From: Planctomycetota bacterium
GTDB lineage: Bacteria; Planctomycetota; Planctomycetia; Pirellulales; Lacipirellulaceae
NCBI GenBank assembly: GCA_013152515.1
Contig: JAADGD010000188.1
Location: forward strand, 1 to 33,569
Direction of reading: 5' to 3'
Length of the DNA stretch: 33,569 nt
The notes below the pieces were generated by a model, which had not been told where the DNA came from, did not search any database, and saw nothing but the letters and a program-made list of their open reading frames with translations. A program made the translations under genes and the position numbers. Positions 6,317-27,366 of this stretch are shown piece after piece (position 1 is the stretch's first letter; every line of letters starts with the position of its first letter).

Positions 6317-6391
6317 CCGAACCGCGCCCGTAAGGAAGCGTCCAAACAGACTTCTAGCCCCCTCGGACGCTTCCTAACGGGCGCGGTTCGG
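6317..6391. repeat. Dispersed hairpin repeat, CGAACCGCG family, copy 1
   Basis: The left arm at 6318-6343 starts CGAACCGCGCCCGTAAGG and continues to AAGCGTCC; the right arm at 6365-6391 is GGACGCTTCC... to GCGGTTCGG. The arms are nearly perfect reverse complements with a loop of about 21 bases. The same arms occur at 10739-10826, 14645-14755 and 27294-27366. It lies just upstream of the sulfatase start. Confidence 0.85.
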
Positions 6392-6412
6392 TATAGGGTT
6401 GTACGGCTCAAT

Positions 6413-6483
6413 CGTGAGCGAAGGACTTCAATCCGTAGCTCACGAAACTTTCAAACCTACTGGCCTTCAGCCGGTAGTAGTTT
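6413..6483. repeat. Dispersed double-hairpin repeat, copy 1
   Basis: Two small stem-loops in a row: CGTGAGC (6413-6419) pairs with GCTCACG (6438-6444), and AAACCTACTGGC (6453-6464) pairs with GCCGGTAGTAGTTT (6470-6483). A similar unit is at 10835-10906, sharing GAAGGACTT, TCCGTAGCTCACGAAA and a CTTCAGC segment. In both places it follows a CGAACCGCG hairpin on the same strand. It overlaps the 3' end of the racemase remnant. Confidence 0.7.
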
Positions 6484-7281
6484 AGTTTTGAGTAAATATT
6501 TAACTTGCTCCAATGCTAAATGAGGGCTTGTTAGAATAGGCACTAGGCTGCTCTTCAGGAAGAACATATAGTAATCTCGCAGTGGAGGCTTGTGCAAGAA
6601 CTATCTCCTCGACTTGGGTACCCAAATCAAGCACGGCCTTCTTGACTAAGCGATCATGTGTTTCGACGTCTTGTCTCCTGAGAGCCTCAAAAGCGTGTTC
6701 TACCAGCACAAGCTTTATTTCAAGCGGTCGACCTACTCTGGCGGCTTCTGCTTGCAGCAATTGCTGAGTAGGGTTCAGCGTTGTCGGAGTTGGTTGCGAT
6801 GACGCCGATCTTGGTACCTTCTTGAACCGCCTTGGCGATCATCGCTTCGTCGATCTTGTTGATCGGAATTCCAACCGAGGCACGCACGACATCGACGCAA
6901 GGCGAGATCGTCGAACAAGTGACCAAAACTACCTGCGCCCCAATATCTTCGGCAACTGCTATGATTTCTTGTAAATGCCTCGAATCTTCCGACGCAATCT
7001 TTCCTCGCTGGCGAACACGCTCCAGCAGCGGTTCGTTAAGGCGAGCGGCAGTTGAGAACGTACCCACGCGAAACCGCAGGCTAGCGCCAAGCGGCTGATT
7101 TTATCAGCCGCAACGCGCTAGCGTCCGGGTTCTTCGCAGGTAAATTCTCATCTGCCGCTCGCCTAAGAACGTGCATTGTGCGAAAATCTGGCAAGAGCTT
7201 TGCGCACAGCTCGTCGAAAACATCGATCTATTGCGAGGCCGTGTGAACCAAAACGAGCTTGTTGTTTTCTGAAATCTTCAT
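6457..7281 (-). pseudogene. Decayed aspartate/glutamate racemase-family gene, interrupted by an inverted-repeat element
   Basis: Pieces of one protein are readable on the minus strand. From ATG at 7281: MKISENNKLVLVHTASQ, then an in-frame TAG (7228-7230), then IDVFDELCAKLLPDFRTMHV and L. The 123-bp element 7041-7163 follows. The frame resumes with NEPLLERVRQRGK and contains AQVVLVTCSTISPCVDVVRA, with the catalytic-type Cys of the Asp/Glu racemase fold, then IGVIATNSD. A one-base shift near 6779-6785 leads to TLNPTQQLLQAEAARVGRPL and VEHAFEAL. LAQASTARLLYVLPEEQP is followed by a second one-base shift near 6543-6547 and VPILTSPHLALEQVKYLL, the expected C-terminal motif with the second Cys replaced by Thr. 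One stop codon, two shifts and one insertion make this a pseudogene; a sequencing error could explain one lesion but not all. Substrate cannot be inferred. Confidence 0.85.
7041..7163. mobile_element. 123-bp inverted-repeat insertion element with TAAG target duplication
   Basis: The ends are GCGAGCGGCAG (7041-7051) and CTGCCGCTCGCC (7152-7163), inverted repeats of each other. The core is a second palindrome around GCGGCTGATTTTATCAGCCGC (split at 7091-7111), bounded by CTAGCGCC and GCGCTAGCG. TAAG at 7037-7040 and again at 7164-7167 is a perfect 4-bp duplication. Deleting one TAAG plus the element rejoins the racemase frame as His-Val-Leu-Asn-Glu-Pro. No open frame is inside, so it must have been moved by an outside transposase. 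A half copy of the end, CCGCTCGCCTTAGTAACC, is near 7641-7658. Confidence 0.82.
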
Positions 7282-9180: not shown

Positions 9181-9197
9181 GGGCGAAATGACAGGAC

Positions 9198-9339
9198 GAC
9201 TGCAAAGTCTTTTTTTTGAACCGCCAAGCACGCCAAGAGCGCCAAGGACATGGCCTAGATCAGCAAATTTCCAAGAGTCTCTTCTTGGCGTCCTTGGCGC
9301 TCTTGGCGGTTAATTTAGTTTCCTATTGACTTTGCAATC
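9198..9339. repeat. Nested inverted repeat with AACCGCCAAG arms
   Basis: Inner arms: AACCGCCAAG (9219-9228) extended by CACGCCAAGAGCGCCAAGGA, against CTTGGCGTCCTTGGCGCTC followed by TTGGCGGTT up to 9311. Outer arms: GACTGCAAAGTC (9198-9209) against GACTTTGCAATC (9328-9339). An 11-base direct repeat, GGGCGAAATGA, flanks the structure at 9181-9191 and 9345-9355. No coding frame is present. Confidence 0.75.
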
Positions 9340-9355
9340 CTTCTGGGCGAAATGA

Positions 9356-10738: not shown

Positions 10739-10826
10739 CCGAACCGTCCCGGCGCGCCGGGATAAGGAAGCGTCCGTTTGAGTTCGACTCCTGTTGTTGG
10801 AACGCTTCCTTACGGGCGCGGTTCGG
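10739..10826. repeat. Dispersed hairpin repeat, CGAACCGCG family, copy 2
   Basis: The right arm (10799-10826) matches copy 1 closely. The left arm (10739-10775) carries extra bases forming the 14-base perfect palindrome CCCGGCGCGCCGGG at 10748-10761 in place of the expected CGCCCG. It lies between the convergent symporter and DUF1552 genes. Confidence 0.82.
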
Positions 10827-10834
10827 TTTCCCCT

Positions 10835-10906
10835 CGTGAATGAAGGACTTTAGTCCGTAGCTCACGAAATTTTCGAACTCACCTGCTTCAGCGAGTGGTA
10901 GCTGAG
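10835..10906. repeat. Dispersed double-hairpin repeat, copy 2
   Basis: It shares GAAGGACTT, TCCGTAGCTCACGAAA and CTTCAGC with 6413-6483, in the same order and orientation, and again directly follows a CGAACCGCG hairpin. Confidence 0.7.
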
Positions 10907-11018
10907 TAAACGCAGAGAATCGCAGAGAAAATAGATGAAAACTGAAGCTTTCGGAGGATAGATTCTCTACGATGGTTCTCATAACAAACTCTCTGCGACT
11001 CCGCGGGCTCTGCGTTTA
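10907..11018. repeat. Inverted repeat with AAACGCAGAG arms
   Basis: TAAACGCAGAGAATCGCAGA (from 10907) pairs imperfectly with TCTCTGCGACTCCGCGGGCT followed by CTGCGTTTA (10990-11018). The loop is about 60 bases with no reading frame. It abuts the previous repeat directly. Confidence 0.75.
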
Positions 11019-14644: not shown

Positions 14645-14755
14645 CGGTCGCTTCCTTACGGTCGCGGTTCGGCAGTACGTTGTGCACGCCTCAATTCCGA
14701 ATCGCGACCGTAAGGGAGCGACCAGATTCCGAACCGCGACCGTTAGGGAGCGTCC
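14645..14755. repeat. CGAACCGCG-family repeat cluster, copy 3 (three units)
   Basis: One inverted unit (14645-14672, ending GCGGTTCGG) is followed by two direct units, CCGAATCGCGACCGTAAGGG (from 14698) and CCGAACCGCGACCGTTAGGG (from 14729). Either of the latter can pair with the first. It starts 8 bases after the Fur-family stop and ends up the promoter side of the DUF1592 gene. Confidence 0.85.
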
Positions 14756-27293: not shown

Positions 27294-27366
27294 CCGAACC
27301 GCGACCGTGAGGGAGCGTCCGGACAAGTTTCAAATTTAACTCGACGCTCCCTCACGGTCGCGGTTC
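27294..27366. repeat. Dispersed hairpin repeat, CGAACCGCG family, copy 4
   Basis: Arms at 27294-27320 (CCGAACCGCGACCGTGAGGG...) and 27343-27366. The motif CTAGCCGAACCGC is also duplicated just before (27278-27301). It separates glnK from glnD and could act as a transcript hairpin between them. Confidence 0.82.

Follow-up and report, generated by a model that had tools for sequence, protein, structure and literature searches.

Tourist-type MITEs insert at a 3-bp TWA target and have ends starting with GG. Several bacterial MITEs have been named, among them RUP, NEMIS and Nezha (PMC3733652), and the insertion sequences (IS) of the ISAzo13 family generate 3-bp target-site duplications (TSDs) (PMC10045372). 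Here, we describe a small element found in a window of 33,569 nucleotides, i.e., the whole stretch of DNA that was analysed, from a Planctomycetota bacterium (contig JAADGD010000188.1) whose genome assembly amounts to 3.71 Mb in 329 contigs and is 80% complete. The element is a non-autonomous MITE, probably mobilised in trans by an element of an ISAzo13 subgroup.

The element and its hairpin

The element spans positions 7040 to 7163 of the window (124 bp, not assigned to a strand) and, on the basis of sequence and fold, is a non-coding MITE, near-palindromic over its full length. The first-pass annotation had described it as a 123-bp inverted-repeat insertion: the insertion is real, with perfect 12-bp terminal inverted repeats, and the length has to be corrected to 124 bp. 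The left terminal inverted repeat, GGCGAGCGGCAGTTGAGAACGTACC, lies at 7040 to 7064 on the plus strand, and the right one, GGCGAGCGGCAGATGAGAATTTACC, at 7139 to 7163 on the minus strand. These inverted ends extend over about 25 bp and are imperfect (GGCGAGCGGCAGWTGAGAANNTACC), whereas their outermost 12 bp, starting with GG, are perfect inverted repeats. A further inner inverted repeat (7070 to 7132) forms the tip of the hairpin, its arms (7070-7099 and 7103-7132) being 80% complementary.

As a single strand, the element is predicted to fold into one end-to-end hairpin. Folded as RNA, it reaches −82.8 kcal/mol against −41.9 ± 3.9 kcal/mol for shuffled sequences (z = −10.5), a stability matched by 0 of 200 shuffles, and the hairpin of the minus strand has a z of −11.7. 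No open reading frame of at least 80 amino acids is present inside the 124 bp, nor any transposase gene.

The element interrupts a decayed racemase gene

The element lies within an Asp/Glu racemase gene on the minus strand, of which three parts can be recognised: the 5′ part (7164 to 7281, defined by homologue alignment), which contains an in-frame TAG at 7228-7230; the middle part (6774 to 7037, NEPLLERV...NSDNAE, PF01177); and the 3′ part (6500 to 6775), in another frame, where homology resumes past a frameshift. When the flanks of the element are joined (...HVL/NEPLL..., the slash marking the junction), they align without gaps to nine intact homologues of related genomes, with PDFRTMHVL/NEPLLERV beside PEIDLFHIT/DDSLIKDV, and it is therefore a true insertion within a coding frame.

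Two other lesions accompany the insertion, the TAG, which is codon 18, and the frameshift near 6774-6790; with three lesions in all, the racemase gene is a pseudogene. The idea that removing the insert restores a readable gene thus holds for the local frame only, where HVL and NEP are rejoined; the gene as a whole is not restored, because the stop at codon 18 and the later frameshift remain. This is a warning against assuming that the simple removal of such an element restores the gene whose frame it interrupts.

The target is TWA and the duplication is 3 bp

The element is flanked by TAA on both sides, at 7037 to 7039 on the left and at 7164 to 7166 on the right. By pairing the ends across all the loci collected, we obtained 69 non-redundant copies with both flanks. 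Identical 3-bp flanks were present in 53 of these copies (31 TAA, 19 TTA, and 3 others, so that TAA and TTA make up 50 of the 53) and absent from the remaining 16, while only one copy matched over 4 bp. When flank pairings were shuffled (2,000 trials), the number of 3-bp matches had a mean of 27 and a maximum of 41 out of 69, a chance level raised by the predominance of TAA and TTA among the targets. The base beside the triplet was near random over the 69 copies (19 G, 19 A, 17 C, and 14 T). The target is TWA (TAA/TTA), and the duplication is 3 bp long.

Copies in the genome and in its relatives

The genome-wide search for the ends proposed by the first-pass annotation was clearly positive: a 19-base end pattern, allowing up to two mismatches, gave 66 matches in the element's own genome and none for the reversed control. 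These counts, together with the hairpin z of −10.5, exclude a chance origin of the element. Copies of the same subfamily, at other sites and in another genus, are 91-99% identical to that of the window, and relatives in the genus and in the family also carry copies. An exact scan of named genomes with a 25-base pattern retrieved mostly Planctomycetota MAGs, as well as Rubripirellula obstinata, two MAGs named Kuenenia, and one named Verrucomicrobia. In seeing here a small non-coding element that is mobile and has left a target-site scar, the first-pass annotation was correct.

Grouping by interior divides the 69 paired copies into 30 groups, and 40 of the 69 copies form single end-to-end hairpins. 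Open frames of at least 200 amino acids contain 11 of the 69 copies, compared with 191 of 325 points drawn at random from these loci, and the elements are therefore mainly intergenic. The racemase insertion is an exception to this placement, and it sits in a decayed gene. Several contigs start or end within the element, which helps to explain contig breaks in such assemblies.

The own genome (G000, contig C254, locus L002) and a MAG placed in another genus (G022, contig C85, locus L040) share a 2.5-kb segment, 99% identical, in which the element occupies the same site, reflecting either bin contamination or recent transfer. A second G022 insertion site (contig C69) is not continuous in the own genome.

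Empty sites and neighbouring repeats

A search of 43 genomes found no counterpart of the racemase DNA or of the right flank of the element, so that these relatives offered no intact racemase at the same locus and no orthologous empty site; the only part of the locus detected was the neighbouring MFS gene, at 64-73% identity in five genomes of the genus. The recent movement that had been proposed draws support from copies at different sites with identities of up to 98-99%, but not from an orthologous empty site. On contig C83, however, a second repeat, CCGAACCGCGCCCGTWAGGAAGCGTC, carries a nested copy of the element precisely at its TAA; uninterrupted copies of this repeat occur in the window at 6317-6343 and 6365-6391. 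This nested copy is the equivalent of an empty site.

The second repeat belongs to a palindromic family, CCGAACCGCG(C/A)CCGTWAGGRAGCG, present in the window at 6317-6391, near 10801, at 14646-14755, and at 27296-27366, with further copies elsewhere in the genome, including the one on contig C83 that contains the TWA MITE. Both window copies of a 75-bp repeat with small hairpins (6412-6487 and 10834-10907) adjoin a copy of this palindromic family; the 75-bp repeat is 78-91% identical in many planctomycete genomes, reaching other families of the order, and often stands at contig starts. A third small inverted-repeat element, AACCGCCAAGCACGCCAAGAGCGCCAAG, lies at 9192-9346 (arms 9219-9246 and 9284-9311), just outside the MFS gene, and has many copies in the own and in related genomes.

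A candidate mobiliser of the ISAzo13 family

Scanning for end pairs at larger spacing identified two longer elements, L056 and L132, and L192 and L194 came from a search covering 396 genomes of the order. In L056 (positions 1502-2843, 1,342 bp, from genome G004 of the same genus) and L132 (1792-3182, 1,391 bp, from JAGQQQ010000593.1), the end pair surrounds a PF07592 transposase. L192 (241-1607, 1,367 bp, genome G392) has both ends, TAA on both sides and a transposase, while L194 has one end, with TAA outside it, and an ISAzo13-type transposase. In all four, the ends are of the GGCGA(G/T)(C/T)GGCAG...TACC type and the transposase is of the PF07592/NF033519 type. When the right end of the window element is read on to ...TGC, 26 of 28 bases match those of the left end of L192. 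NCBIfam assigns both halves of the L192 transposase to the “ISAzo13 family” (model positions 3-192 and 195-387), each half alone scoring below the whole-protein cut-off of NF033519 (86 and 119 bits against 200). In L056, a contig end prevents the TSD from being read on one side, and L132 is not flanked by a matching TSD.

In the own genome, at 80% completeness and in 329 contigs, we found no transposase gene flanked by matching ends; multi-copy elements tend to be lost from incomplete bins. The PF07592 copies that this genome does contain were rejected as partners: their ends differ, and they belong to other subgroups or, at a contig end, to a truncated relative. The nearest of these matches, at the end of contig C139, is 53-56% identical over a short stretch and looks like an internally deleted relative. 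The search for a transposase suggested by the first-pass annotation thus yielded a candidate, of ISAzo13 type and with shared ends, albeit one with a 3-bp and not a 4-bp TSD.

A conserved frame switch in the transposase gene

The transposase genes of L056, L132, L192, and L194, which come from genomes of different genera, all contain a +1 frame switch at the same G-run/A-rich run, for example CTT GGG GGA AAA AAC (region of GGGGGAAAAAAC). In L107 and L108, other ISAzo13 copies of the genus, the transposase is one open frame. Since the break is conserved, programmed frameshifting or slippage may be a better explanation than four errors that arose independently; no open paper linking ISAzo13 with such a frameshift was found.

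As a tentative extension, to which we would give somewhat less than even odds, planctomycetes could host a MITE superfamily with one set of ends and about 30 mostly hairpin interiors, all needing an ISAzo13 subgroup whose transposase cannot be made without a programmed +1 (or −2) frameshift, or slippage of the transcript, at the conserved G-run/A-run. If this were true, such control would restrain the activity of the IS and of its MITEs alike.

Proposed mechanism and alternative explanations

We consider it highly likely (probability about 0.9) that the element is a MITE with the ends of an ISAzo13-family autonomous subgroup, inserted at TWA by the transposase of that subgroup acting in trans. 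The DDE transposase would recognise the 25-bp ends of the MITE and make a 3-base staggered insertion at TWA (TAA/TTA), after which gap repair would duplicate the TWA; movement in trans would proceed by cutting and strand transfer in the manner usual for DDE enzymes. The observations behind this proposal are the shared ends, the length and sequence of the TSD, the copy number, the insertion in the racemase frame, and the autonomous elements with the same ends.

The first-pass annotation favoured a 4-bp TAAG duplication, and hence a small element moved by a transposase with a 4-bp stagger and a 4-bp target preference. TAAG does stand on both sides at the window site when the target is taken to include the element's first base, but the perfect inverted repeat begins with GG: the G in the left TAAG already belongs to the 12-bp terminal repeat, as its first base, which leaves a duplication of 3 bp and not 4. 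Across the copies, moreover, the 4-bp model fits 17 of 69, as expected for a random base after TWA, whereas the 3-bp TWA model fits 53, and the longer duplication is almost certainly wrong. The same TWA target, together with the GG ends, would also suit a Tourist/IS5-like MITE, since the IS5/PIF-Harbinger type transposases that would move it likewise favour TWA/TNA. This origin is very unlikely, since an ISAzo13 transposase sits between the very ends in question and no DDE_Tnp_4 (PF13359) turned up in 14 genomes of the genus, so that an IS5-type partner was ruled out there.

The end-to-end hairpin, with its z of −10.5 and −11.7 on the two strands, and the avoidance of long frames by the copies (11/69 against 191/325 random points) could instead point to a REP/REPIN-type palindrome spread by a RAYT, or to a hairpin kept for an RNA function, as a terminator or mRNA stabiliser. 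However, the ends are common to a DDE transposon, it is mainly the ends that are shared among the roughly 30 interior groups, and an Rfam search of the window gave no match; to our knowledge, REPs do not have ends and duplications of this kind. We therefore regard this explanation as improbable, and retain that of a MITE dependent on an ISAzo13-type transposase.

Comparison with known systems

As in other MITEs, terminal inverted repeats, a TSD of fixed length, dispersed copies without transposase, and ends common to an autonomous element were all found. On the side of the putative partner, assignment to ISAzo13 follows from a transposase lying between the shared ends, with PF07592 and NF033519 matches over both halves, and from the 3-bp TSD seen in L192 (TAA/TAA) and in the MITEs. 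No description of ISAzo13-linked MITEs was found in the open papers searched, which is weak evidence of novelty, and the element is an ordinary miniature transposon, although of a family for which we found no description. A common small planctomycete repeat is in this way linked to its probable mobiliser, and the ends combined with TWA provide a precise signature for annotation.

The element resembles the Tourist-type PIF/Harbinger MITEs in its 3-bp TWA target and GG ends, but these are eukaryotic and belong with another transposase family than its candidate mobiliser. It shares with RUP, NEMIS, and Nezha a size of 90-250 bp, terminal inverted repeats, a TSD, a non-coding sequence, and many copies, and differs from them in its ends and in its likely ISAzo13-like mobiliser. 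Lastly, the autonomous partners sharing its ends resemble ISAzo13-family IS in their transposase (PF07592, NF033519), and the 3-bp TSD is that of the family (PMC10045372); unlike those IS, the window element is without a transposase, and the transposase gene of the partner subgroup is split at one fixed site.
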